Source: a virus
Direction: 5' to 3' (one strand)
DNA length: 37,567 nucleotides
IMG/VR virus record: IMGVR_UViG_3300044987_001483
Coordinates: 1 to 37,567 of that record
The position numbers and the translations under genes were made by a program. Every line of letters begins with the position of its first letter. Within the stretch, counting starts at the first letter, position 1. The notes below the pieces were generated by a model. The model ran no database searches and had not been told where the DNA came from. It saw nothing but the letters and a program-made list of their open reading frames with translations. Shown here piece by piece: positions 466-24,768 of this stretch.

Positions 466-1593
466 TCACGCCGCCTTCAAGACGGCCGCGATCCGCTCGC
501 CGCCGCTGCTCACGTCGATGGTCACCTGTGACACGTAGCAATCGATGAGCGTGCCGTCAAACGTCGCGGTCACCTTGTCGCCCCAGGCCCAGTGCACACC
601 GTAGATGTATTGCGGCGTGTCGATGAGCGTGCCGGCGAACACCCGGCGCGGGCGCTGCGAGCGCAGGTAGGTTTCCGCCTCGTAGGCGCAGCCGGTCGTC
701 GTGGTGTAGCCGTTGCGCGCGTCCTGGAACGCCTCGCGCCGGTTGAACGGCGACGCCCGCAGCCGCGCCACCTCGCTGCTGGTCGCCGATGGCGCCGTGC
801 CGATGACGCGCGCGGTGCCGACGCCGTTGCCAGCCGCGTAGCAGTACGTCACCTCGTTCGAGTAGTCCTCGCGCAAGGCCGGGTCGCTCAGCATGCCGGA
901 CTCCTCAGACACGATGAGCGGGGATGGACCGGCAGTGGTTCTGTCCACGCCGCGCTGCCCGGCGTAGGTCTGGAACACCCACGCCGCGGATGACGCCGCG
1001 TAGATGTCGAAGTAGATCGGCTTGCCCAGCGCCGTCGATGCGTCGCACAGTTCCTGTGCGCATTGCAGCACGTTGCGGTAAGCCATGCTCTTCGTCACCG
1101 TGGCCCCGCGCCCGACATCCGCCGCGACGCTCAGCCACGTGGTAAGCCCGCGCGCCGCCTCGCCTACGCTGGCGCCCATGTTCTCGCGCACAATGGCCTT
1201 GATTACATCGTCGGCGCTGTCGGTCTTGTCGGCGCCAGCGGTGCCCGTGGACGCGTACACGATGCGCCGCGACAGCAGTTCCACAAGCGGGACAGCGCCG
1301 ATGGTGTAGCGCAGCGCGCCGTCCGCGCGCGTCTTGCCCCAGTCGCGCACCAGCCACACGGTATCGGTCAGCAGGCTGGACACGCCGTCGCCCGGCTTGC
1401 GGATCACTTCAATCTGCATGTCGGGACGCAGCCATGAGTAGGGGAATGAGTCCGGCGTCGCAATGTCCAGCGCGCCGATTTCGTTGGTGATGCGGACGGC
1501 GCGCAGGGACGTGAACGCGTCGATGCACGCGACGTGCGAGCCGTCCGGCGTGTTCAGCCACACCTGGTACTCGGTCGCCACGTCACACCCCAT
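466..1593 (-). CDS. Gp37-like tail-tip protein
   Basis: A 375-residue tail protein that resembles the ReqiPepy6 Gp37-like/Tal family, which lies below the distal tail protein and forms the tail-tip hub. It starts with a compact beta domain (YQVWLNTPDG, then a segment around LRAVRITNEIGALDI) and ends with a typical hub beta domain (WGDKVTATFDGTLIDCYVSQVTIDV). These are features of hub proteins that bind the fibre. The ATG at 1593 overlaps the preceding stop by 11 bases, and a GTG at 1581 is an alternative. It lies between the Dit-like gene and the fibre, the usual place for this family. No peptidase motif is visible. Confidence 0.75.
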   Translation of the reverse strand: MGCDVATEYQVWLNTPDGSHVACIDAFTSLRAVRITNEIGALDIATPDSFPYSWLRPDMQIEVIRKPGDGVSSLLTDTVWLVRDWGKTRADGALRYTIGAVPLVELLSRRIVYASTGTAGADKTDSADDVIKAIVRENMGASVGEAARGLTTWLSVAADVGRGATVTKSMAYRNVLQCAQELCDASTALGKPIYFDIYAASSAAWVFQTYAGQRGVDRTTAGPSPLIVSEESGMLSDPALREDYSNEVTYCYAAGNGVGTARVIGTAPSATSSEVARLRASPFNRREAFQDARNGYTTTTGCAYEAETYLRSQRPRRVFAGTLIDTPQYIYGVHWAWGDKVTATFDGTLIDCYVSQVTIDVSSGGERIAAVLKAA

Positions 1594-3580
1594 CCGCCGA
1601 CCAGTACCGGTCGCGCCACTCGATCTGCGCCGTGATGGTCGGCGCGCCGGCCGTCGTCACCAGCACCGCGATTTTGTTGGCGCCGGGCGCAAGCGCGAAG
1701 GTTTGCAGCCCGGTGCCAGCGACCACCTTGCTCAGCAGGTTGCCCTTGTAGTCGCTGGTAATCGACTTCACGCCCGGCGTCAGGTCAATCGTGACCGTCT
1801 CGCCGTCGCCCAGGCCATACGGCAAGATGATTTCCTTGCCCGTTGTCCAGTTGACGACGCTTTGGATCGTGGCGCTTGTGCCTCCCGCGCGCTTGATGGT
1901 GATGGTCGGGTAGGCGTTGGCGGTGCCGCCGTTGGTGACAGTCGTCACCGCTGGCGCGACAGCAGTCCCCGCCGTGTTGAAGCCGACGTACACCCGGCCG
2001 TAGGTGTCGACCGCCACCGCGCGCGACGCCGCGCTGCCGGGCATGTCGATGTCCAGCGAGTGCCACGCGCCATCACTGAACACGGAGAACTGGTCAAGCA
2101 GCGTGACGCGCCCCGATGTGGTGATGTTCTGGCACGCCGCGTACAGGCGCCCATCGTCGCCTGCCGCGATGTCGTAGACAACTTCGCCCGGCGTCGTCCC
2201 TCCCAGGCCGGCCCCGACCGGCGCCCAGCCTGAGCCGTTCCATTGCGCCACGCGCCTGGCCGTTGCGCTGTCGGCCAGCGTAAAGCCGCCGCCCGCATAC
2301 AGCATCTGGTCGGCGCCGTACTCCAGCGCGTACACCGAAGCCCCCACCGATGTCGACTCGTACATGCCGGCGCCCATCGCCGTCCAGGTAGCGCCGCTTT
2401 TCTGAGCGACGGATGCAGCCGCCACACCGTTGATGGCCCCAAAGGCCCCGCCGACCACGGGAGTTTCGCCGTCCGGCGCGATGCGCACCGCAGTCACCCA
2501 CGATGTCGGCGCGGTCGTGTAGTCGCTGGTACTCCAGTCGCCTACGTCATAGTCCCACTTCACGAGATACTTTTGTAGCGCGTTCGTCGTCCCTCCAATC
2601 GCGCGCGTCGCCGTGAACGTCCCGCCCACCCAAACGTCGTTGTTGTCGGCGCGCGCAATCGAGTACACGACGCCGCCCCAAACGCCCTCAGACCATGACC
2701 AGTGCGTCGAATCGAACCATGTGCCGGTGACGGTCTGAAACGATGCGATGGAATCGAACGTGTACGGGCCGGCAGTCGTGAATCGCCCCCCGACGAACAT
2801 CTCGCCATTCGCCCCAAACTCAATTGCCGCAACCGCTGCCTGCGTTGATGTCGTGTACGCGACACCCTCGCCGCACGTCCCCCACTTTGAACCGTCCCAG
2901 TACGTGACGCAGTTCACCGTCAGCGCAGTCCCGCCGCCCGTGCCGTTGTACGCCGTGGCGAACGCGCCGCCGACGTACACGTTGCCGGTCATCGGGTGGA
3001 CGTTGATGTCGACAACCTCGCCCGACAGCCCGCCCGCCATCGATTGCCACGTGCCATCCGTCCCGCGCATCATGATGTAGTTGGCGTCGGTGACATCGCG
3101 CGAAGTCAGCAGCGCCGCCGTAGTCACGCCGCCCGCCGTCGTCTCGTACACACACCAGGTCGGGTCTACAGCCGCCAGCCGCAGCGCGAATGGATGCAGC
3201 GACTCGGCCGCGGTGTAGTCCATCTCCAGCCCGCCATCGTAGCGGACGGGTATCTCCAGGCACTCCGTCCCCGATGTCGAGCCGTAGTAGCGCAGCAGGA
3301 ACGTCTCGCCGTCGAGCGCGTCCCGGTTGATGGCATCGATGAGCGACTTGCGCGCCGCGTGAAACTGGTACTGCGTCTTCTGCTCATAGACGCAGGCAAG
3401 CTGTATCACGCGCTCGCGGGCGATGGTGCGCTGATGCGCCGCGCCGTCGCTGAGCGAGTAGCGCGTGATGATGTTGTCGGTCGGCGGCATGCCGGCCCCG
3501 GTGACGCCCGTTACGCGGATGCCGTAGGTCGAGTACAGGTCGTGCTCGGCTGTCCCGATGACCAGCTTCCAGTCGCTCAC
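1583..3580 (-). CDS. Distal tail protein (Dit-like) with an inserted seven-repeat beta-propeller
   Basis: This 665-residue protein starts at a GTG (3580-3578), just after the tape-measure stop. Residues 1 to ~150 read as a Dit N-terminal beta domain. Residues ~550-665 read as the C-terminal galectin-like part (ITIKRAGGTSATIQ, then ANKIAVLVTTAG and IEWRDRYWSADG). Between them are seven repeats with a YVGGxF core at residues 200-207, 260-267, 315-322, 373-380, 427-433, 478-484 and 529-534. They are spaced about 50-60 residues apart, and the last two are degenerate. This period fits a seven-bladed propeller. Ordinary Dit proteins are ~250-350 residues, so the insert roughly doubles the protein. 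It could add a sugar- or receptor-binding ring to the tail tip. Dit is inferred from order and fold pattern; the repeats are seen directly. Confidence 0.75.
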   Translation of the reverse strand: MSDWKLVIGTAEHDLYSTYGIRVTGVTGAGMPPTDNIITRYSLSDGAAHQRTIARERVIQLACVYEQKTQYQFHAARKSLIDAINRDALDGETFLLRYYGSTSGTECLEIPVRYDGGLEMDYTAAESLHPFALRLAAVDPTWCVYETTAGGVTTAALLTSRDVTDANYIMMRGTDGTWQSMAGGLSGEVVDINVHPMTGNVYVGGAFATAYNGTGGGTALTVNCVTYWDGSKWGTCGEGVAYTTSTQAAVAAIEFGANGEMFVGGRFTTAGPYTFDSIASFQTVTGTWFDSTHWSWSEGVWGGVVYSIARADNNDVWVGGTFTATRAIGGTTNALQKYLVKWDYDVGDWSTSDYTTAPTSWVTAVRIAPDGETPVVGGAFGAINGVAAASVAQKSGATWTAMGAGMYESTSVGASVYALEYGADQMLYAGGGFTLADSATARRVAQWNGSGWAPVGAGLGGTTPGEVVYDIAAGDDGRLYAACQNITTSGRVTLLDQFSVFSDGAWHSLDIDMPGSAASRAVAVDTYGRVYVGFNTAGTAVAPAVTTVTNGGTANAYPTITIKRAGGTSATIQSVVNWTTGKEIILPYGLGDGETVTIDLTPGVKSITSDYKGNLLSKVVAGTGLQTFALAPGANKIAVLVTTAGAPTITAQIEWRDRYWSADGV

Positions 3581-3581
3581 A

Positions 3582-5525
3582 TCACACCCCCGCCATAGCG
3601 CGCATGAGCGCAAAGGACGATTGCGGCTCGTTGGTCGGCCCCGCGCCGTAGGTCGGCGAGTAGTTCCACGTGTTCGTGATGGTTCCGCCCTGCCGTGGCG
3701 TGAATAGCTCCGGCCCGCGCTCGCCGACGATGTAGGGCATGCCGGACTCGACCGGGCCACCCCATGCGCGACCGTTACCCGGCAGGCCGGGGATGATTGA
3801 CTCTTCGGCCGCTTTGCGCTTCTCCATGAATTGCTGCGGGGTATATTTCCCAGGCGCCCAACCAAATATGTCCTCGTTGAGCTTCTTACTAAGTTCGTTC
3901 TGCCGCGTCCAATCGCCTGTTTCTATGCCTTGCACGAGCGACTGCCAGTATTGCCCAATCGAGATGGCCGTCCCGCCCGCCGCAAGCTCGCGCTTCTTTT
4001 CGTTGTCGATGAACTGCTGTGTTGCCTTCGCGTGATCTGGCCCGATGGTACGGTTGTACTTCTCGGCCGCGGCAGTCAGTCCGCCCCAGCCTTCCTTTTC
4101 CACGATGCGGATATTGTCCAGCCACTCGCCCGCGCTGAAGCGCCCAAACAGATCCATTGCCGCCTTCGACTTTTCGGTCTCGCCTTGCGACAATATCATC
4201 GCCTGCTTCATTGAATCCGGCCAGGCGTTCTGCGTCATGTTGCGCTGCAAGTCGTCATTCGCCACGCCCACGTTGTTTAGCGCGTCTACCAGCATGACGT
4301 ACTTTTCCAGTGGCGTAGACCGGTTGTACTTATCCATGTCGATGCCCAGCCGTTGCATTGCCGCGCTCGTGCTGTTCACCGCGTCAGTAGTCGCCGATGC
4401 CGCTGCCGCACCAGCCGCCGCCAAGTCCTGCATCTGCCGCGCGTACTGCTTCGCCTCGCGCGCCGATGCCTTCTCGGCCGCGGCTTCCATGCGCGTCTGC
4501 GCCTTGTCGAAGGCCGCGACACGTTCGGCGTTGGCCTCACGCTCCAGCGCGATGCGCTCCTGTAGCGCCTCGCGTTCCATCGCAATCTGCTCGCGCACCG
4601 CCTGCTCGCGCGCGTTGTACTCGCGCTCGGCAATCTCCGCGCGCCGCTGTTCGTCCGTGGTGATGGCGTCCTTGCGCGCCTGCGTCCGTCCGCTCAGCGC
4701 GGCAAGCTCAGCCGCCAGCGCGCGTTTGCCAAGCTCGGTATCGGCGTTGGCGAACTGCGATTCGATGGCGGCGCGTTCGTCGGCGCTCTCGCCGTCAATC
4801 TCGGCGAACTGGTCGGCGATCTCGCGCATGCGGTCAAGGCGCGACAGGTCGTAGTCGCGCCGCATCATGTAGATGTCGCGCTCGTAGCCGGCGACCTTGC
4901 GGGACGAATCGCGCTCGAAGTCGGCGATCTTGCGCGTCACATCCCGCGCCGCGTCGACGCGCTGCTCGCCCAGGTCGCCCAGGCGCTCGGCCAGGCTCTC
5001 GGCCGCGTCGCCGACGCGTTGGGCGTGGTCTTCCTCAAGCCGCGCGAGTTGGTTACCAAACTTGCCAGTTGCCGCGCCGGCCGCAGTCGCCGCGCGCGCC
5101 TCGTCGTCAAGCCGCTGGTTGAGCATGGCGAACGATGTGCCGACACGCTGAACGCTCGCGCCCGCCATCTCGATGCCGGTGGCGAACACGGACGACGCCT
5201 CCATGCCGACGCCGGTGATGTCCGAGAACTGGTCGACGATCAGAAACCAGTCTTTAGCCGCGCCCGATGCCGCGCCAATGGCTGCGATGGCCGCGGCGGC
5301 GGCGCCCGCGATTGGTACGATGCCGACGAGGCTGGCCGCGAGGCCCTCGAAGTTGATCTTCCCGGTACTCGCAGCCGTGAGCGCAGTTTGGCCCAGCGAC
5401 GATAGGCCCTGCTTCGTTTTGCCGGCTTCGTTGTCGATCTTCTTGACCGACTCGGCCACCTGGCCCATAGTGCGGCTGGCGTTGTCGGTCGCGTTGACTT
5501 CAAGCTCTACTTTCTTCTTTGCCAC
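3582..5525 (-). CDS. Tail tape measure protein
   Basis: A 647-residue tape measure that sets tail length and chaperones tail assembly. It starts at a GTG (5525) with GAGG six bases upstream. The N-terminus has the typical coiled pattern MAKKKVELEVNATDNASRT. Residues ~60-100 are a hydrophobic Ala/Gly-rich segment that could cross a membrane during DNA entry. A very long charged coiled coil rich in Glu, Arg and Ala follows (residues ~160-370). The C-terminus ends in Gly- and Pro-rich sequence with a VGERGPELFTP motif common in tape measures. Using the usual ~0.15 nm per residue, the tail would be roughly 95-100 nm. It follows the frameshifted chaperone pair, as is standard in siphophages. Confidence 0.9.
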   Translation of the reverse strand: MAKKKVELEVNATDNASRTMGQVAESVKKIDNEAGKTKQGLSSLGQTALTAASTGKINFEGLAASLVGIVPIAGAAAAAIAAIGAASGAAKDWFLIVDQFSDITGVGMEASSVFATGIEMAGASVQRVGTSFAMLNQRLDDEARAATAAGAATGKFGNQLARLEEDHAQRVGDAAESLAERLGDLGEQRVDAARDVTRKIADFERDSSRKVAGYERDIYMMRRDYDLSRLDRMREIADQFAEIDGESADERAAIESQFANADTELGKRALAAELAALSGRTQARKDAITTDEQRRAEIAEREYNAREQAVREQIAMEREALQERIALEREANAERVAAFDKAQTRMEAAAEKASAREAKQYARQMQDLAAAGAAAASATTDAVNSTSAAMQRLGIDMDKYNRSTPLEKYVMLVDALNNVGVANDDLQRNMTQNAWPDSMKQAMILSQGETEKSKAAMDLFGRFSAGEWLDNIRIVEKEGWGGLTAAAEKYNRTIGPDHAKATQQFIDNEKKRELAAGGTAISIGQYWQSLVQGIETGDWTRQNELSKKLNEDIFGWAPGKYTPQQFMEKRKAAEESIIPGLPGNGRAWGGPVESGMPYIVGERGPELFTPRQGGTITNTWNYSPTYGAGPTNEPQSSFALMRAMAGV

Positions 5526-15954: not shown

Positions 15955-16246
15955 GCTCCTCCCTCACCACATAGCCGCGATCCTTGCCCAGCGTCTTTGT
16001 TACCCAGATCATCGCCGTCACGTCGCCGCCGATCATGGCCTTTCGCAAGCCGGCCTCGGCGATGTCCACCATCTCGCCGCGGATGTCGGTGACGATGTCG
16101 CGCAGGCCCTCGTCCTTTTCCAGCCGCTTGTAGAGCGTGCCCGGCGCGCAGTTGAGCTGACGCGCCGCGAGGTACACGCCGCCGCCGCATGCCTTGAGCG
16201 CCGCCACGATGTCGGCTCGCTTCACGCGGGTCTTGGGTGTGGTCAT
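15788..16246 (-). CDS. Terminase small subunit
   Basis: A 152-residue DNA-binding packaging protein that would recognise the phage DNA. I choose the ATG at 16246, which overlaps the methyltransferase stop as ATGA. Residues ~8-50 form an HTH (RADIVAALKACGGGVYLAAR, then NCAPGTLYKRLEKDEGLRD). Helices follow, then a charged C-terminal tail containing HEISGRDGG, a segment commonly seen in TerS. Its 3' end lies within the first 167 bases of TerL in another frame, which is a longer overlap than usual. Confidence 0.8.
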   Translation of the reverse strand: MTTPKTRVKRADIVAALKACGGGVYLAARQLNCAPGTLYKRLEKDEGLRDIVTDIRGEMVDIAEAGLRKAMIGGDVTAMIWVTKTLGKDRGYVVREEHEISGRDGGPVQIQPFRYDDAVARIAARPERDSLAPGANQDHQLRPALGEDDDGG

Positions 16247-17451
16247 GGCACACGCTCCGGCGTCCGGCCCGTGGCCTGATGCCATCTCTCAAGCGCGACC
16301 GCGACATAGCCCGGCGATATTTCCACGGCCCGGCAGCGCCGCCCAAGATTCTCGCAGGCGATGATGGTCGTGCCGCTGCCGGCGAAGGCGTCGTATACAT
16401 CGCCGGTCGTGCAGTCGCCTATCAGCAGCCTAAACCAATCGGCGGGCTTGCTGTGACTGTGCTCTGATTCCGCGTGCAGTTTCGTGATGGGCGCGCTAAA
16501 CACGTCCGCTAGATGCTTCCCTCGCGGGTCCGGTTTGAATGTGTACTCGCCCCGCGTATTGAATACGTCGCGCTGTTCGCCCGCGTCCCCGTAGTGCGCA
16601 CCGTCGAATTGATAATCGCTCACGTCGCCATACCATAGGCACAACTTGCCGCGCTTCAATGGGCGGCTGGGTGTGTACCAACACGACACGCAGTCCCACG
16701 TAAACACCCACGCGGGAGCGCCGAACATGCGCACCACGTCGCCGCATCGCTGCCCGTCCGTGAACGCGAGAACATGCGCGTAGGGCGTGGCGTCGAATTG
16801 CGGCGCGCTGTCCCACTCGGGGTCAAACACGACAGACTTACAGCGAATGTCCATCACCCGCGCCACTACAGCCGCGTCGGTGCAATCGCCGCACACCAGC
16901 CGATGGTCGCCCAACTGCCACAACTGCCCCGGCTCCACGCCCCACTTGACGCGCAACTCCTCGGCCTTGTCGATTTGCGGCTCGGCGTCCAACTCCTCGG
17001 CGGGATGGAACACCCCGGCCTCCTTCGCCAAGTCCTCAAGCATCCGCGTCACGCTGGCGTCCTGCGATTGCACGCTCGCCAGCAGCGCGTCAAGCGCCGC
17101 CGCGTCCGCCTGCGCCATCGCCGAAAGTGGGTCGTGCGTGACAAGCACGTAGTCCGCCTCCGCGTCGCTCAGGTCGGTCACCGCCACCATGTACTCATGG
17201 TCTGGCGCGATGCCGCGCCGCAGGTGGCCGTCGATAAGCGTGAGCTTGCCTCCGTTGCGCTCGCTGTGCCAGGCCAGCAGGACGCCCACGTCGCCGACCT
17301 CGCGCATGACGCCGGCCATCGCCTCGGCTTGCGCGTCGGGATGATCGCGCCAGTTGCCGGGGTGCGGCTCCAGGTCGCCCGCCCGCACGCGCCGCACTTC
17401 GACGATGCGGTCGCGCACGTTCACCAAGCCCGGCTTTACCTTGCGGCTCAT
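16243..17451 (-). CDS. ParB-like/DNA methyltransferase fusion with altered catalytic motif
   Basis: A 402-residue fusion. Residues ~15-110 are ParB/sulfiredoxin-like, with RAGDLEPHPGNWRDHP and the KLTLIDGHLRRG motif. The rest is a beta-class amino-methyltransferase with motif IV first and the SAM motif last (DAFAGSGTT at 354-362, then GRRCRAVEISPGYVAVALERW). The usual catalytic [DSN]PP[YFW] appears as DPEW (210-213). The middle Pro is replaced by Glu, so the enzyme may be weakened, inactive or different in substrate. Adenine or cytosine specificity cannot be read. It lies just before TerS, so it may mark DNA ahead of packaging. ATGA and GTGA overlaps bind it to its neighbours. Confidence 0.75.
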   Translation of the reverse strand: MSRKVKPGLVNVRDRIVEVRRVRAGDLEPHPGNWRDHPDAQAEAMAGVMREVGDVGVLLAWHSERNGGKLTLIDGHLRRGIAPDHEYMVAVTDLSDAEADYVLVTHDPLSAMAQADAAALDALLASVQSQDASVTRMLEDLAKEAGVFHPAEELDAEPQIDKAEELRVKWGVEPGQLWQLGDHRLVCGDCTDAAVVARVMDIRCKSVVFDPEWDSAPQFDATPYAHVLAFTDGQRCGDVVRMFGAPAWVFTWDCVSCWYTPSRPLKRGKLCLWYGDVSDYQFDGAHYGDAGEQRDVFNTRGEYTFKPDPRGKHLADVFSAPITKLHAESEHSHSKPADWFRLLIGDCTTGDVYDAFAGSGTTIIACENLGRRCRAVEISPGYVAVALERWHQATGRTPERVP

Positions 17452-18506
17452 GGTCGCCTCGCAAACAACTCAGCGGATTCCCTGAACGCATCGGCCGCGC
17501 CCGGCTCCACCGTGTCGCGCAGGCTGAACGGATGCAGCGGCGCCGTGAGCAGCCCGCGCAGGCCCATCGCTATCGCCTTCGGCGTGTTGGGGCGCAAGCC
17601 GGCCGGCCAGTCGCTGCCCGCGATGACCTGGACTGCCATCTCGCTCAGCGCCGACAGCAGCGGCGGGAACTCCTCCGCGAAACGATGGCGCGGGAAGAAA
17701 TCAAACGCGATGTGAAACGCGGCGTCCGGGTTGACCGCCCGCAGTATCACGCTCCACAGGCCGGGGATGTCAACGACGCCCGACGCGCCCCAGGCCGGGC
17801 CGTAGTACACCGGATGCAGCGCCGACCAGCACTCGTGCCACTGCGTGTCGGCATACACCGCGTGCAAGCCGACCAGCGCCTGCGCCAGCGTTGAGTACAT
17901 CCACTCGAACGTCGTGCGCGCGCCGAAGTTGGGCAACGCGCGCGGGTTGCCGACGTGGTCGCGGTAGCTGGCGATTGCGGCCGGGTCGTAGATGCAAGGG
18001 ATGGCCGGTGGCAGTATCGACTCGCCCTCCTGGCTGAAACACTGGATCACCTGCACGTCGTCGGCGCGGTAGCGCGCTTGCAAGGCCCGCACGAAGCCCA
18101 GGTAGCAGTCCATCGCATCGGCATTCCACGGCGACAGACAGCCCCAGGTCTGCTGGCTGTTGCGCTGGTCGTTGGTGCGCATCGGCCGGCCGTCGATGTC
18201 CCACACGTAGAACTCGTCGGGAAGGTGCGTCGGCACGGACGACGGCCCCATGAGCAGCACGCGCATGCCAGCGGCCCGGCAGCGCGTGACCTGTTCGTCG
18301 GTCAGCGACCAGTCCACCTGGCCCGGCTCGCGCTCCATCAGGTGCCACGGCGCGAACTCAAGCGCCACGGTCGCGCCCGCGTCGCGGAACCGCTTCAGGT
18401 CGTCGAGCGGGATGGCGCGGGAGATCCACTTGGGATTCCACGGCGACACGCCGGTCGCCGGGCAGTCCATCACGATGTTGTGGCAGTCGTCGGGTATAAA
18501 ACTCAC
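17448..18506 (-). CDS. TIM-barrel glycoside-hydrolase-like protein
   Basis: A 352-residue protein with a GTG start overlapping the previous stop. The N-terminal half resembles the GH42/GH5-type TIM barrel, with LKRFRDAGATVALEFAPWHLMEREPGQVDWS near residues 38-67, GMRVLLMGPSSVP near 80-92, and IQCFSQEGESILPP at 154-167. E160 or E162 lies where a general acid would sit. The second half contains HIAFDFFPRHRF and QVIAGSDWPAGL. I cannot name the substrate. It sits between the GluRS-like gene and the methyltransferase, close to the lysin. A role in modifying cell-wall or surface sugar is possible but unproven. Confidence 0.6.
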   Translation of the reverse strand: MSFIPDDCHNIVMDCPATGVSPWNPKWISRAIPLDDLKRFRDAGATVALEFAPWHLMEREPGQVDWSLTDEQVTRCRAAGMRVLLMGPSSVPTHLPDEFYVWDIDGRPMRTNDQRNSQQTWGCLSPWNADAMDCYLGFVRALQARYRADDVQVIQCFSQEGESILPPAIPCIYDPAAIASYRDHVGNPRALPNFGARTTFEWMYSTLAQALVGLHAVYADTQWHECWSALHPVYYGPAWGASGVVDIPGLWSVILRAVNPDAAFHIAFDFFPRHRFAEEFPPLLSALSEMAVQVIAGSDWPAGLRPNTPKAIAMGLRGLLTAPLHPFSLRDTVEPGAADAFRESAELFARRP

Positions 18507-19219
18507 AGCATCTCCTCATCGATCACAGGCTGGTCGAGGATGTTATCCAGCGCCCAGCCCGCGCGCGCGTCAATCAGGCACGCATGCGCCAGCGCGTCAA
18601 TCACCCGCTCAGGCGGCACGCCCGCGTCGCGCAGGGTCGCCACCTTCCACGCGCCGCCCGTCTTGGATACCGTGTCGATCTCGCCGTCGCGTTCGGTGGC
18701 CAGCCGTGGCATGAAGGTATGGCGCGGGATGGGCAGGCCCATCACCTCGCAGCAATAGCAGTACAGGCTGAAGCGCGGCAGTAGGTCGATGCCAGTCACC
18801 ACATGGTCGACGCCCTGCTTGGCGTCCATCCATGCCACGCGCGCGGTCAGGTAGACGGTGTACGGATACCACGCATTCGACATGCCGCGCACTTCGGGGA
18901 AGTGCGCGAACTCGCCGGGGTCGTGCGCGTTGGGCCAGTGCGCGTGGACGGCGGCGCCGGCCTCATCGGCCAGCGTCGACTCGAAACAGAACTCGTCAAA
19001 GCGGATGCCGAGCCACGTCATATCACGCAGCCACTCGCGCCCGAAGCCCTGCATGGCCTGCATGGTGTGAAGCGCGAGCCACGCGGTCTGGTCGTCCTCG
19101 CACCTGAGAATGAAGCGCCCGCCCGTCGTCTGCGCGATGTGCTGATTCACCAGCGCGAGGTAGACGTGGCCCAGGTGCGGCAGGCCGTTGGCTGTTGGAT
19201 TCAATCTGACGTTGCTCAC
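18503..19219 (-). CDS. Stand-alone glutamyl-tRNA-synthetase-like catalytic domain
   Basis: A 238-residue class I synthetase core. RLNPTANGLPHLGHVYLAL (residues 5-23) carries the HIGH motif as HLGH (15-18). FILRCEDDQ (37-44) matches the GluRS/GlnRS FxLRxEDT segment. GVDHVVTGIDLLPR (136-149) matches the GxDHVxRGEDLL block, and TVSKTGG (183-189) stands for KMSKS. The GTG start (19219) overlaps the lysin stop as GTGA and follows AGGAG. No anticodon-binding domain is present, so it resembles GluQRS-type truncated enzymes. Ile in GID replaces the usual Glu. It could aminoacylate a tRNA, another molecule, or nothing. It sits between two glycosidase-like genes. Confidence 0.75.
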   Translation of the reverse strand: MSNVRLNPTANGLPHLGHVYLALVNQHIAQTTGGRFILRCEDDQTAWLALHTMQAMQGFGREWLRDMTWLGIRFDEFCFESTLADEAGAAVHAHWPNAHDPGEFAHFPEVRGMSNAWYPYTVYLTARVAWMDAKQGVDHVVTGIDLLPRFSLYCYCCEVMGLPIPRHTFMPRLATERDGEIDTVSKTGGAWKVATLRDAGVPPERVIDALAHACLIDARAGWALDNILDQPVIDEEML

Positions 19220-20778
19220 TTCCAAAACTCCTGCATGAGTGGCATGTACTGGTCCACCCGGTACCCTGCCCAGTCGTTGTCATTGCCGGATTGGAACAAC
19301 GCGCCGCCAAGTATCTGCGTGGGCCAGCCGAGCGACTCTTGCGCCTGGCACGCCAGCCAGTCGCGGCACCACTGCGAGAACTGCGCGCCGGTGTAGCCGT
19401 GCGCCGGGAACCCGCCCACCCCGCCTTCGTCCACGCCGGTCTCTGAGCACAACACCTTGCGCAGCTTCGGGTCGAAGCCGCAGCGCGAGAACAGTTGAGC
19501 CCACCGGCGCGCATACCAGACGTCGAAGTCCTGCCCGATCTTGCGTGTGTACAAATGGAAGCCGATGTAGATGCCGGGGTCGTTGTTGTACAGCCCGGCC
19601 ACCCGGCGCCTGAAGATGTCGGCCAGCTCGTCGTTCCAGAAGTCCGGCGTGCCCATGCTGTACGCGCCCAAGCTCACGCGGTAGCCGCGCTGCCGCACGA
19701 TGGCGGCGGCGCTCAGCTCAGCGTCCAGGCGGTCGTTCAACTCCTTCGCGTTGCCGTAGCCCTGCCCGTTGTCGCTCTCGTTGAGCGTCTCGTAAATGCA
19801 GTTCGGGTGCAGCTCGCCGGCCAGCATGTGCGCAGCCAGGCCAGCACCGCCCCACGGCCCGCTCACGTAGTGGCGATGGACAACGACTGCATCGGGGTAC
19901 TGCCGGGCCAGTTGCGCGGCAACCGGGAAGTTGTCCAGCACCTGGAAGTAGCGGCAGCCCTGCGCCGCGTAGTCGAAGGCGATGCGGTGATTGCCGATGA
20001 CGTTCACGCCGATGAGCACCTTGCCCGGCACGATGGGCGGTGGCACCACGATGGGCGGCTCGACTGCGTACTGCCGAAACTCCAGCGTCGTCGGGATGGA
20101 CGGCGCCGAGTAGTAGCGCGACACGAAGTCGCGGTACGCCTGCTGTTGGTCCGGCGCGATCCCCCAGAACACAATGCGCCGCGAGCGCAGGCCGGTGATG
20201 GGCAGGCAGGCGTCGTCGACGCTGAAGCACACCGACTGCTTGCGCAGGTACGCCTCGCCGGCCACGATGTCGTACTGCGCGCGCGTCGCGGTCTGCGTCG
20301 GCACGTGCACTACGCGGTCGTAAGGCTCGCGCGCCACGTAGGGTGCGTCGCCGGCTGTCGTCATCGATACCCCCAGCTTGGCGCGCGTCATGGCGTCAAG
20401 CGACGTGCGCGGCGCGAGGATGTTGGCTCCGCGCGAGTCCGGCCAAAGCGGGTCATGGAAGTGCGTGTCGTCGAGGCGCACGATCCAATGCAGCCCGGTG
20501 TAGTTCGGGTCGTAGCGGTGCGGCAAGTCGGTGTAGCGGATGAGCGCGGCGTGCGGGTAGCCGTCGCCCGCAGTTGCCATCAGCCCCAGGTGGGCCCACA
20601 TGGCGCGCAGGTCGGCGGCGGTCGTGCCATCGGCAGGCGGGTCGAATCGTTCGGCCAGCGACTGGACTGTCTCAGCGTTGCCCTTGCCGAGAGCGCGGGC
20701 CAGCATGAGCGCGACGGCCGGCCCGCAGTCGTTGCGCGCCGCGTTGCCCATCTGCGAAATCCAGGGGATGCTCGTCAT
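19216..20778 (-). CDS. Lysin: C39-like peptidase plus glycosidase
   Basis: A 520-residue, two-part enzyme likely to open the cell wall. I place the start at the ATG at 20778, which overlaps the previous stop as ATGA; longer versions enter that gene. Residues ~4-125 are a C39-like cysteine peptidase with DCGPA (C18), LHWIV (H97) and FHDP (D109). A linker follows (~130-235), then a TIM-barrel glycosidase from about residue 250. YETLNESDNG carries acid/base candidate E334, and CSETGVDEGG carries nucleophile candidate E446. It has no signal peptide and follows two holin-like genes, so holin-dependent release is the simplest model. Confidence 0.75.
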   Translation of the reverse strand: MTSIPWISQMGNAARNDCGPAVALMLARALGKGNAETVQSLAERFDPPADGTTAADLRAMWAHLGLMATAGDGYPHAALIRYTDLPHRYDPNYTGLHWIVRLDDTHFHDPLWPDSRGANILAPRTSLDAMTRAKLGVSMTTAGDAPYVAREPYDRVVHVPTQTATRAQYDIVAGEAYLRKQSVCFSVDDACLPITGLRSRRIVFWGIAPDQQQAYRDFVSRYYSAPSIPTTLEFRQYAVEPPIVVPPPIVPGKVLIGVNVIGNHRIAFDYAAQGCRYFQVLDNFPVAAQLARQYPDAVVVHRHYVSGPWGGAGLAAHMLAGELHPNCIYETLNESDNGQGYGNAKELNDRLDAELSAAAIVRQRGYRVSLGAYSMGTPDFWNDELADIFRRRVAGLYNNDPGIYIGFHLYTRKIGQDFDVWYARRWAQLFSRCGFDPKLRKVLCSETGVDEGGVGGFPAHGYTGAQFSQWCRDWLACQAQESLGWPTQILGGALFQSGNDNDWAGYRVDQYMPLMQEFWK

Positions 20779-21314
20779 AGCGCCGCCCCCGGCCGCGCCT
20801 TGTGCGCCGCGTCGCCCAGTTGTGACAACCTCCCCATGCGCTCGGCGTACTCGTACAGATGCAGCGCCGCGGCTGGTTGCGGCAGTCCAGCCGCGCCGGA
20901 CTGCTCCCACTGCAAGCCGGCGTCATGCGAAAGCGTCTCAAGCTCCAGCACTGTGAACCGCGTGCGCAGCAGGTCATACAGGCCATCCATCATCACAATC
21001 GCCGGGTACATGTGCGGGCGCGGCGCCGGTGTGGCGCCCAAGGAGATCACCTGTTGCGTCAGGTCGACCACCCAGGCGCGGAGTTCGTCGTTCTCTCTGC
21101 GGATGCCGACGATCTCGCGGCGCAGCGCGTCGATCTCGGACTGTAGCCGCGCGCCTTGTTCCACCGCGCGTTGCCAGATTCGGCCCTCAAGCTCAGCCGC
21201 CGCGCTTGGCGTAGGCGTTGCGCGAAAGCGCACAGCCAGCCACCCGACCACTGCCAAGAACGCGACTAGCGATGCGACTTGAATCGCGTCCGCGATAGTG
21301 ATGACATCAGCCAC
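20775..21314 (-). CDS. Membrane/coiled-coil protein with a death-like (EAD) C-terminal domain
   Basis: A 179-residue protein. I choose the GTG at 21314, which has GGGGGA five bases upstream and overlaps the previous stop by 8 bases. Residues ~10-28 are one transmembrane helix. Residues ~38-92 are a coiled coil (LQSEIDALRREIVGIRRENDEL). Residues 111-167 match the effector-associated/bacterial death-like pattern: LYDLLRTRFTVLELETLSHDAGLQWE, then a loop with Gly and Pro, then ALHLYEYAERMGRLSQL. Such domains recruit partners in bacterial immune and stress systems. Its place is where a spanin or lysis regulator normally lies. The fold call is by pattern only, so a spanin-like function without that domain remains possible. 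Confidence 0.55.
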   Translation of the reverse strand: MADVITIADAIQVASLVAFLAVVGWLAVRFRATPTPSAAAELEGRIWQRAVEQGARLQSEIDALRREIVGIRRENDELRAWVVDLTQQVISLGATPAPRPHMYPAIVMMDGLYDLLRTRFTVLELETLSHDAGLQWEQSGAAGLPQPAAALHLYEYAERMGRLSQLGDAAHKARPGAAL

Positions 21315-21603
21315 GAGTCCCCCGGTCGCGCCCCACCCATGCATTGAGTGTGAGCGTAGCCGCGAGCGCCATCGTCGCCATCTCGTACCATCCATTCGTG
21401 AGCCGGAACCCGGCGATGTAGATAGCCTGGATGACGACGACGTAGCCCAGTCCCACGGCTGCGACGACGCGCAGGGCGCGCCCCACTGCGTCGCTGCCGT
21501 GGCGAATCGTGTGCACGTTGAGCACCACGCCAGCGGCACAGATGACGACGAGTAGCACGTTGTCGCCGTAGCGGGCGATCCAGGTGATGACATCGGCCAC
21601 CAT
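21307..21603 (-). CDS. Holin-like membrane protein
   Basis: A 98-residue protein starting at the ATG at 21603, one base after the preceding stop. It has about three hydrophobic helices (DNVLLVVICAAGVVLNV, RVVAAVGLGYVVVIQAIYIAG, YEMATMALAATLTLN) and a short basic tail ending VGRDRGTRG. Such proteins form holes in the inner membrane at the end of infection. It lies just before the lysin, which supports holin function. Which of the two adjacent small membrane proteins is the main holin cannot be told. Confidence 0.65.
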   Translation of the reverse strand: MVADVITWIARYGDNVLLVVICAAGVVLNVHTIRHGSDAVGRALRVVAAVGLGYVVVIQAIYIAGFRLTNGWYEMATMALAATLTLNAWVGRDRGTRG

Positions 21604-21604
21604 G

Positions 21605-21880
21605 TCACCCGTGCGGCGGCGGGTTGGTGGCGCGGCGGATGGCGTCGGCATCGCGTAGTCGCTGCGTGTTGTCAGCCAGGCGCACAGCCCGCACGCGCTG
21701 TACCTCGGCCTTCACGCCGACCACGCCGGACGCGCCCAGGATGACGACCACCAGCCCCACCACCGCGGCCAGCACATCCGGCGACAGGTCGGGGAACGCG
21801 TAGCGCGCGACGATGGACGCCAGCAGAATGACGGCGCTCCACACCTTCGGGTCTTTGAGGATCGCGCGGATGATGTCCAT
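21605..21880 (-). CDS. Holin-like small membrane protein, first late gene
   Basis: A 91-residue protein with its ATG at 21880 and GAGG just before it. It has two hydrophobic helices, VWSAVILLASIVARYAF and VLAAVVGLVVVILGASGVVGV, with a basic, Arg-rich C-terminal tail. A pair of hydrophobic helices with a charged cytoplasmic tail is typical of phage holins. It is the first gene of the late transcript, about 15 bases after the U-tract of the leader terminator. Confidence 0.65.
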   Translation of the reverse strand: MDIIRAILKDPKVWSAVILLASIVARYAFPDLSPDVLAAVVGLVVVILGASGVVGVKAEVQRVRAVRLADNTQRLRDADAIRRATNPPPHG

Positions 21881-23188: not shown

Positions 23189-23680
23189 TTACTTGCTTCG
23201 CGCCACGATGAATCCAGGCGGCAAGGCCGACAGCTTGAATGCGTGGAACGTTGAAGAGTTGTCGCCGTTCGCGCGCTCTTGCCACTCATGCTTTTTTGAG
23301 TAGAGACACCTGTTGAACCAAAGCCGGAACACCTTCAGGTCGCACAGAGACCACGCGCGCAAGCCAACCTCGCGCTCATCGCTGAAGCCGTAGAAGAAAT
23401 AATCGCCCCACCCCGCAACGACTTTTGTCAGTTCTGTTTCAACCCCGCTCGGTCTCCCGCTGCGAATGGTGAACTCATCCGGGTACCTGTCGAAGTATTC
23501 ATGGCGGCGAATCCGGCAGGCGATCCGAACCGCTTCGAGCTTCAACACAATCAAGTCGGTGTTGTGGCGCCCGTCCTCTTCTTCCGTCGACTCGCCTATT
23601 AGGTGCTCGCCAAGAATCCGCTTTATCTCAGGTATGAATCTGTCCGACCACCTCTTGTCATCTTGCCATGTCGCCGTCAC
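23189..23680 (-). CDS. Possible PD-(D/E)XK-like nuclease
   Basis: A 163-residue protein. I choose the GTG at 23680, which overlaps the previous stop as GTGA and follows GAGGTGG. It starts VTATWQDDKRWSDRFIPEI. Residues ~40-60 read HNTDLIVLKLEAVRIACRIRR, like the D...(E/x)xK core of that superfamily with R in place of K. GVETELTKVVAGWGDYFFYGF follows and is a segment seen in uncharacterised phage proteins of this kind. Function is uncertain. It is last in the RHH/methyltransferase operon, so a partner in DNA modification or defence evasion is possible. Confidence 0.45.
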   Translation of the reverse strand: MTATWQDDKRWSDRFIPEIKRILGEHLIGESTEEEDGRHNTDLIVLKLEAVRIACRIRRHEYFDRYPDEFTIRSGRPSGVETELTKVVAGWGDYFFYGFSDEREVGLRAWSLCDLKVFRLWFNRCLYSKKHEWQERANGDNSSTFHAFKLSALPPGFIVARSK

Positions 23681-24768
23681 TTGCCCACCTCGTTCCCCCA
23701 TGAATCGAAACCGTCGCGCCTCTTCCGTGCGAACATGTCCAGGCGCGGCGATGGCGACGCCTGAATCACGCGGTCATAGAACACGTCAGGCTTTACAGAA
23801 TGCCCATTGGCCGGCGCATCAAACGACAGCTTCAACCCCAACCGCTCCAACCTCAACCCGCCCCGGTGGGCATAGATAACGTGCTCGGTGTTGTACATCC
23901 ACGAGAACGGCGTAATGCCGGATGGCTTTACCCACGTCATCATGCACTGGTAGTCAAAGCCCCACGCCCGCACAAGGTCTATTCCTTCCGGCATGAACTT
24001 TTGCGTCACCCAAAGATACAGGTGGCAGGCGGGCGCGGCAATGTCCCCGACCGGGATGGCGCGGATCTCCTCAAGCGTCATCGTCGGGTAGTCCAGACTC
24101 GCCCCCTGATTCGGTCTTACCTCGCGCTCTATCTTTGCCATAGGCCACGGCGGATCGATGACGATGCACTTGTACGCCTGCCCTGGATAGTCCGGCGTGA
24201 TGGCAGGCTCTGGGACGTGGAGGCGAGCAACGCTTTGCTTTGCCTGTGCGATGGTCATGCCCCCTGCCTTGACCTGCTCAAACAGTTCTGGCGCGTCCGC
24301 CTTGAGGCGCTTGGCATCGCTCACGTAGTGCGCGTTTGTGCCGACAAGCGCGGCGGCTTGCTCGCGTGACTCAGGCTCAATCACTTCCGGAAAAAATTCC
24401 GGAAGTGATTTCGACTTGCCCGGCGCGGTGCCGCCGTGCTCGCGCTGCCGCCGCTTCGCCTCTTCCTCAAGCATCGGCAGCATGTCCACCCCGACCGCCG
24501 CGCGCTGCGATGGCGTAAGGTGGCGGCGGTGCAAGTTGAGCGACACGACGAACGCAACCAGCGACCCGGCCCCGTTCCATTCGCGCATCACCGGCGCAAT
24601 GCCCAACTCGCTACACGCCCGGTACCTGTTGCGCCCGTCAATGATCTGGCCGTCGCAGGTGTAGATCGGCTCGCGCTGCCCGTTGGCGGCGATGTCCGCC
24701 TTGAGTGACTCGTACTCGTCGCCGGTCATCATGGGGAACAGCGCGGCGATTGGATGCGGCTCTATCAC
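23677..24768 (-). CDS. ParB-like/MT-A70 adenine methyltransferase fusion
   Basis: A 363-residue fusion with a GTG start (24768) overlapping the previous stop. Residues ~15-90 are ParB-like, with KADIAANGQREPIYTCDG and IIDGRNRYRACSELG. The C-terminal half is an MT-A70 type N6-adenine methyltransferase with VIDPPW (DPPW at 205-208), HLYLWVTQKF near 250 and MMTWVKPSG near 278. It differs from the other ParB-methyltransferase (16243-17451), which has DPEW. It may protect phage DNA from host restriction. A 14-base palindrome inside its gene is listed separately. Confidence 0.85.
   Translation of the reverse strand: MIEPHPIAALFPMMTGDEYESLKADIAANGQREPIYTCDGQIIDGRNRYRACSELGIAPVMREWNGAGSLVAFVVSLNLHRRHLTPSQRAAVGVDMLPMLEEEAKRRQREHGGTAPGKSKSLPEFFPEVIEPESREQAAALVGTNAHYVSDAKRLKADAPELFEQVKAGGMTIAQAKQSVARLHVPEPAITPDYPGQAYKCIVIDPPWPMAKIEREVRPNQGASLDYPTMTLEEIRAIPVGDIAAPACHLYLWVTQKFMPEGIDLVRAWGFDYQCMMTWVKPSGITPFSWMYNTEHVIYAHRGGLRLERLGLKLSFDAPANGHSVKPDVFYDRVIQASPSPRLDMFARKRRDGFDSWGNEVGK
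24379..24410. other. 14-base perfect palindrome in the MT-A70 gene
   Basis: AATCACTTCCGGAA (24379-24392) is followed by AAAA and by its exact complement (24397-24410). It lies within the coding region, where the protein reads SLPEFFPEVI. The arm length is far above what chance would give. It may be a binding site for a ParB-like or other dimeric protein, or an RNA hairpin within the transcript. Confidence 0.55.

Follow-up and report, generated by a model that had tools for sequence, protein, structure and literature searches.

What does a complete beta-propeller do when it sits between the two halves of a phage distal tail (Dit) protein? The question is raised by a gene in the window, an IMG/VR virus record of 37,567 bases analysed at its full length, which also encodes a major head protein, portal, large terminase and DnaB helicase. 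The reading that we regard as fairly probable is that the gene product is the Dit of an uncultured siphovirus, whose inserted seven-bladed propeller most likely binds the host surface and is exchanged as a cassette. The first-pass annotation placed the protein at 1583-3580, which is correct, and gave no strand; the gene lies on the minus strand, and stops are present when the interval is read in the first plus-strand frame. Its start context, MSDW, is common to relatives such as L026, L077 and L081. The gene, its neighbours and its predicted domains are as follows.

3582..5525, minus strand: tape-measure-like gene, directly upstream of the dit-like gene; weak match to the phrog_1538 tape measure (E 0.013)
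1583..3580, minus strand: dit-like gene with inserted propeller, 665 aa; GTG start at 3580, stop at 1583-1585, from the translation
3143..3580, minus strand: Dit N-terminal (ring/belt) domain, residues 1-146; AF2 model, Foldseek matches to Dits, Sipho_tail PF05709 in relatives
3041..3079, minus strand: residues 168-180, YIMMRGTDGTWQS, probable outer strands closing blade 7 from the N-terminal side
1958..3085, minus strand: seven-bladed beta-propeller insert, residues 166-541; Pfam Rax2, AF2 strands, Foldseek matches 7bif and 7big
1586..1957, minus strand: Dit C-terminal galectin-like domain, residues 542-665; PF22768 SPP1_Dit, profile match to SPP1 Dit 2X8K
466..1593, minus strand: downstream hub gene of the Sipho_Gp37 family; PF14594 (E 4e-23), phrog_538 minor tail protein

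The gene lies between tape measure and hub/Tal, as a Dit gene does, the tape measure being the weaker of the two neighbouring assignments. The ATG listed for the hub gene at 1593 overlaps the dit-like gene by 11 bases; translation more probably begins at a GTG at 1581, which reads MATEY as in the aligned hub (A4) of L088. Beyond the hub, at 3-464, lies another gene that may encode a fibre; the end of the window truncates it. Pfam detects the C-terminal Dit domain PF22768 at residues 551-659 (28.9 bits, cut-off 25) and the propeller family PF12768 Rax2 (31.0 bits, cut-off 28.8) in the same protein. The N-terminal half of the window protein has no Pfam match and matches the PDB weakly by profile. 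Its assignment as a Dit half, weak by sequence, draws on the structure model and on relatives: among the 42 aligned members, Sipho_tail PF05709 is found in 7, PF22768 in 30, and PF12768 Rax2 in all 42 at E 0.01.

Structure prediction gives the domains their order. With a 42-protein alignment (A1), AF2 produces a model with a pLDDT of 90.1 and a pTM of 0.88; the single sequence without alignment yields no usable model (pLDDT 32). The predicted fold runs from a Dit ring domain through a seven-bladed propeller to a Dit galectin-like domain. Foldseek searches of the PDB match this model to SPP1 Dit 2x8k (E 6.5e-7), the TP901-1 baseplate 4v96 (E 1.5e-6) and seven-bladed propellers such as 7bif (TMt 0.75), as well as to a monocin tip protein and a xyloglucanase, 3a0f. 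In BFVD, plain tail proteins of 274-277 aa align end to end over 668-675 columns (TMt 0.70-0.79), so that the propeller appears as a gap in the alignment. Similarly, PHROG 106, a minor tail family of 329 positions, spans residues 64-626 of the relative L045 across the insert; it is too short to hold a propeller as well, and its alignment to L045 is interrupted by the insert. Profile searches of the PDB find designed and natural propellers down to E 6e-10 and SPP1 Dit at 0.0038. The ring/belt domain (RIFT-related or split-barrel fold) is thus recognised in the predicted structure and weakly by sequence, and the galectin-like domain through PF22768. The propeller had been proposed as a claim that structure prediction could overturn, and the predicted fold contains it; the Dit assignment, likewise, survives structural comparison, profile comparison and synteny.

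The N-terminal half, lacking a Pfam match and weak in its PDB profile match, might also suit another minor tail protein, or a fibre, that carries a propeller. However, Foldseek and profile matches to Dits lie on both sides of the insert, a propeller-less homologue occupies the same gene position, and the gene adjoins the hub. This alternative identity is largely refuted and retains very little weight. Two plain forms, L170 (see below) and PHROG 106, define the propeller as an extra domain of the kind that distinguishes "evolved Dits".

The propeller repeats number seven, spaced 50-60 aa apart over residues 178-541, with cores at residues 202, 262, 317, 375, 428, 480 and 531.

2960..2974, minus strand: repeat 1 core, VGGAF
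2780..2794, minus strand: repeat 2 core, VGGRF
2615..2629, minus strand: repeat 3 core, VGGTF
2441..2455, minus strand: repeat 4 core, VGGAF
2282..2296, minus strand: repeat 5 core, AGGGF
2126..2143, minus strand: repeat 6 core, YAACQN, degenerate
1973..1990, minus strand: repeat 7 core, YVGFNT, degenerate

The first-pass annotation described seven YVGGxF repeats at near-equal spacing. The number and the spacing hold, but YVGGxF is a family consensus that not all seven repeats carry here: a [VA]GGxF core is present in five, and repeats 6 and 7 are degenerate. Strict-core matches nevertheless number 4 in the window protein, against a maximum of 2 and a mean of 0.018 over 20,000 shuffles. The count of seven blades is based on the strand pattern of the model and on matches to 7bif, 7bid, 7bie and 7big. 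Model strands at 169-172 and 178-180, in sequence resembling the W-N-G-x-x-W repeat end, suggest that strands from the N-terminal side (168-180) close blade 7, and the strand order predicts seven blades in a closed circle.

Some propellers are glycosidases, and with a xyloglucanase in the fold list the insert could be imagined as an enzyme, perhaps one that cleaves glycans, instead of a binder. No catalytic family is matched, though; matches among members are mainly to Rax2, DUF5122, Reg_prop and kelch, and most of the invariant and nearly invariant columns of the propeller region hold Gly, Phe or Trp at repeat positions. An enzymatic role is accordingly very improbable.

Queries with the window's own proteins retrieve one near relative, L002/L003. 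The wider family was reached through the repeat end W-N-G-x-x-W-x-x-x-G-x-G, written as a degenerate DNA pattern, which picks out 92 stretches in viral contigs, many encoding the whole architecture. With a second pattern added, 67 full-length ORFs were recovered, forming 59 clusters at 90% identity and 41 at 50%. Hub homologues occur in about 42 loci of this first set. Most relatives have an N-terminal extension of ~200 aa that is absent from the window protein, and CBM_4_9 scores above cut-off in three of seven tested. Two loci, L018:738-4597 and L081:2009-7312, carry a tandem pair of Dit-propeller genes within one phage locus. Elsewhere (L008:1447-2654 and L035:1581-4284) it takes two or three overlapping frames to encode the Dit-propeller, which may reflect a frameshift, a sequencing error or a real split.

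Among deposited phages the architecture is elusive. A tblastn search with the window Dit found none in 50,697 deposited phage records, and L062 gave no match at E 0.01 against the same records. L045 gave no convincing match to deposited phages; its weak matches (E 0.1 or worse) mostly pair the Dit C domain with minor tail or Dit-like proteins of Streptomyces phages. The best BFVD match, A0A6J5MW16 from an uncultured Caudovirales phage (E 2.6e-36, 681 columns, 25% identity), is uncharacterised; judged by the structural alignment it probably has the same Dit-propeller architecture, and differs in being unannotated.

The same repeat type is also found in cellular-type proteins, where a search for the propeller outside Dit had been advised: in an SLH-domain protein in L080 and in secreted-looking proteins in genomes of the phylum of an Armatimonadota MAG. 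These Rax2/DUF5122-type propellers of bacterial surface proteins share the repeat type and the HMM matches, but are free surface or secreted proteins without Dit halves, some with more repeats. Another genome of that phylum encodes a divergent Dit-propeller-Dit protein of 635 aa (L131:1471-3375), which suggests a range wider than the main propeller-Dit family. A host assignment through L097/L098 was dropped, as these lie on short contigs of one Armatimonadota MAG and may be contamination, and a genome match in an Acidimicrobiaceae sequence (L096) proved to be a chance match in arginine-biosynthesis-like genes.

How regular is the insertion? Because a frequency taken from the propeller-pattern loci is biased, loci were instead sampled through an alignment of the neighbouring hub gene (A4), so that propellers were not selected for. 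Of 142 hub loci, the best 80 were analysed, some on contigs also in the first set. Dit-N, propeller and Dit-C stand in one ORF in 69 of these 80, and four more have propeller and Dit-C only. In L219 (2281-5970) a 1110-aa ORF combines Dit-N with an enlarged propeller of about 650 aa, roughly double, and Dit-C is a separate 117-aa ORF; L108 likewise has a separate Dit-C ORF. In L147 (151-4605) the tape measure adjoins the hub with no Dit gene between. Four loci cut too near the hub (L153, L171, L181 and L204) were left out of the judgeable set. A propeller is present in 74 of the 75 judgeable Dits among the best 80 of 142 hub-fetched loci, a frequency that holds for the propeller-phage lineage from which the hub query came, not for all siphoviruses. 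The exception, L170, encodes a plain 258-aa Dit in which the ring domain ends in DPRW and the C domain follows directly: an empty insertion site. The propeller-Dit is near-universal within the sampled lineage of uncultured phages. Propellers inside Dit had been called uncommon; this stands for deposited phage genomes, from which they are apparently absent at tblastn sensitivity, but in the hub-defined lineage they are the rule.

Insert length varies little. Among 107 distinct proteins, the window protein included, it is 294-403 aa, and at least 324 in 106, consistent with seven blades in nearly all. Such tightness (324-403 aa in 106 of 107) is as for a fitted part, and would suit a structural or docking platform that holds a separate receptor-binding protein or fibre without touching the host.

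Sequence divergence, on the other hand, sets the propeller apart from its surroundings. In close relatives from three identity bands, propeller identity is 85% against 97% in the flanking Dit parts, 74% against 84-88%, and 56% against 69-74%. Pairwise profiles show similarity falling abruptly over the propeller and returning in the C domain; one pair is reversed, with diverged Dits and a shared propeller. Across close relatives with exchange, dS rises from 0.2-0.7 in the core to 1.5-2.1 in the propeller; in pairs such as L208/L201, L201/L197 and L163/L158 it is 0.2-0.6 in the core and 1.65-2.1 in the propeller. In L163/L158 divergence changes no more than about 10 residues from either domain border, and in L208/L201 it begins to change inside the ring domain. 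Other pairs have similar dS and similar dN in propeller and core. The compared pairs are not independent. Positive selection on the propeller was rejected, with dN/dS near 0.1 in both parts (median 0.11 in the propeller, 0.075 in the core). Hypermutation was also rejected: pairs with equal dS have a dN ratio close to 1, and the faster divergence of the propeller thus comes from exchange. The propeller is replaced by recombination, not accelerated mutation. This exchange is seen among the relatives rather than in the window protein, because the nearest relative of the latter, L003, ends inside the gene.

Exchange bears directly on the docking platform. Propellers often bind proteins, and the Dit arms of phage p2 reportedly space or anchor a separate receptor-binding protein. 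The window offers a possible client in the putative fibre gene after the hub, some Dit extensions are known to hold other baseplate proteins (PMC7291167), and recombination could equally swap a structural domain that has no binding role. Repeated exchange with breakpoints at or near domain borders is, however, more typical of host-contact modules. Docking without host contact is therefore unlikely, and we lean clearly toward host binding, for which exchangeable tail-tip modules, saccharide-binding Dit inserts and baseplate propellers provide precedents. Exchangeable modules of the tail tip are usually the parts that contact the host.

The protein may work as follows. The N-terminal domain would form the ring joining the tail tube to the hub, with the C-terminal galectin-like domain at the ring edge. 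The predicted propeller is inserted just past the DPxW segment at the end of the ring domain and stops just ahead of the C domain. Known Dits are hexameric. Six copies per virion would by analogy place six propellers, facing outward, round the tail tip, and the wide ring foreseen in the first-pass annotation follows only if this Dit is hexameric too. Each propeller would bind a ligand in some host surface structure, in the manner of the carbohydrate-binding inserts found in evolved Dits, and the cassette may be swapped between related phages when hosts or surface structures change. Only tentatively can one go further and propose that the lineage uses the Dit ring as its main receptor-binding organ, with six cassette-exchanged propellers of host-surface-protein type, possibly acquired from hosts.

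Several known systems resemble parts of this arrangement. SPP1 Dit gp19.1 (2X8K) has the same ring and galectin-like C domains but no insert. In evolved Dits of lactococcal, streptococcal and Lactobacillus phages a host-binding domain is added to a standard Dit (PMC7291167; PMC10688798), and the known Dit inserts bind saccharides (PMC7291167). The present protein likewise adds an extra domain to standard Dit parts and would likewise bind; in theirs, loops of the galectin domain carry carbohydrate-binding modules, whereas here a propeller lies between the ring and galectin domains. The closest precedent for this insertion site is the Corndog mycobacteriophage DTP gp58, in which a whole Rossmann-like domain stands between Dit domain I and the C-terminal domain (PMC13252515). 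Baseplate propellers of the staphylococcal phages phi11 and 80alpha are suggested to bind GlcNAc on wall teichoic acid (PMC4901313; PMC7048315), but these have five blades (80alpha) and belong to a separate trimeric receptor-binding protein, not a Dit. No Dit with an inserted propeller was found in searches of the open-access literature. Our inference is that the propeller, as an exchangeable module for host binding, is a new kind of evolved-Dit insert; the evolved-Dit idea would then cover a complete propeller as well as small carbohydrate-binding domains.

In uncultured phages it is difficult to spot the modules that bind receptors. A propeller between Dit halves beside a Sipho_Gp37 hub is an easily searched signature that would mark a likely host-binding module in scores of environmental phages that lack annotation, and the propeller-Dit shows clearly how, in nature, a cassette is exchanged within a single gene at the tail tip.

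Elsewhere in the window, all on the minus strand, the C-terminal stretch of the product of 20775-21608 resembles the effector-associated domain EAD7 (30.3 bits, Pfam cut-off 32), and 19216-20910 and 17448-18506 have sub-threshold matches to Peptidase C39 and Glyco_hydro_42. Two further genes, 16243-17451 and 23677-24768, each combine DNA methyltransferase and ParB-like matches.
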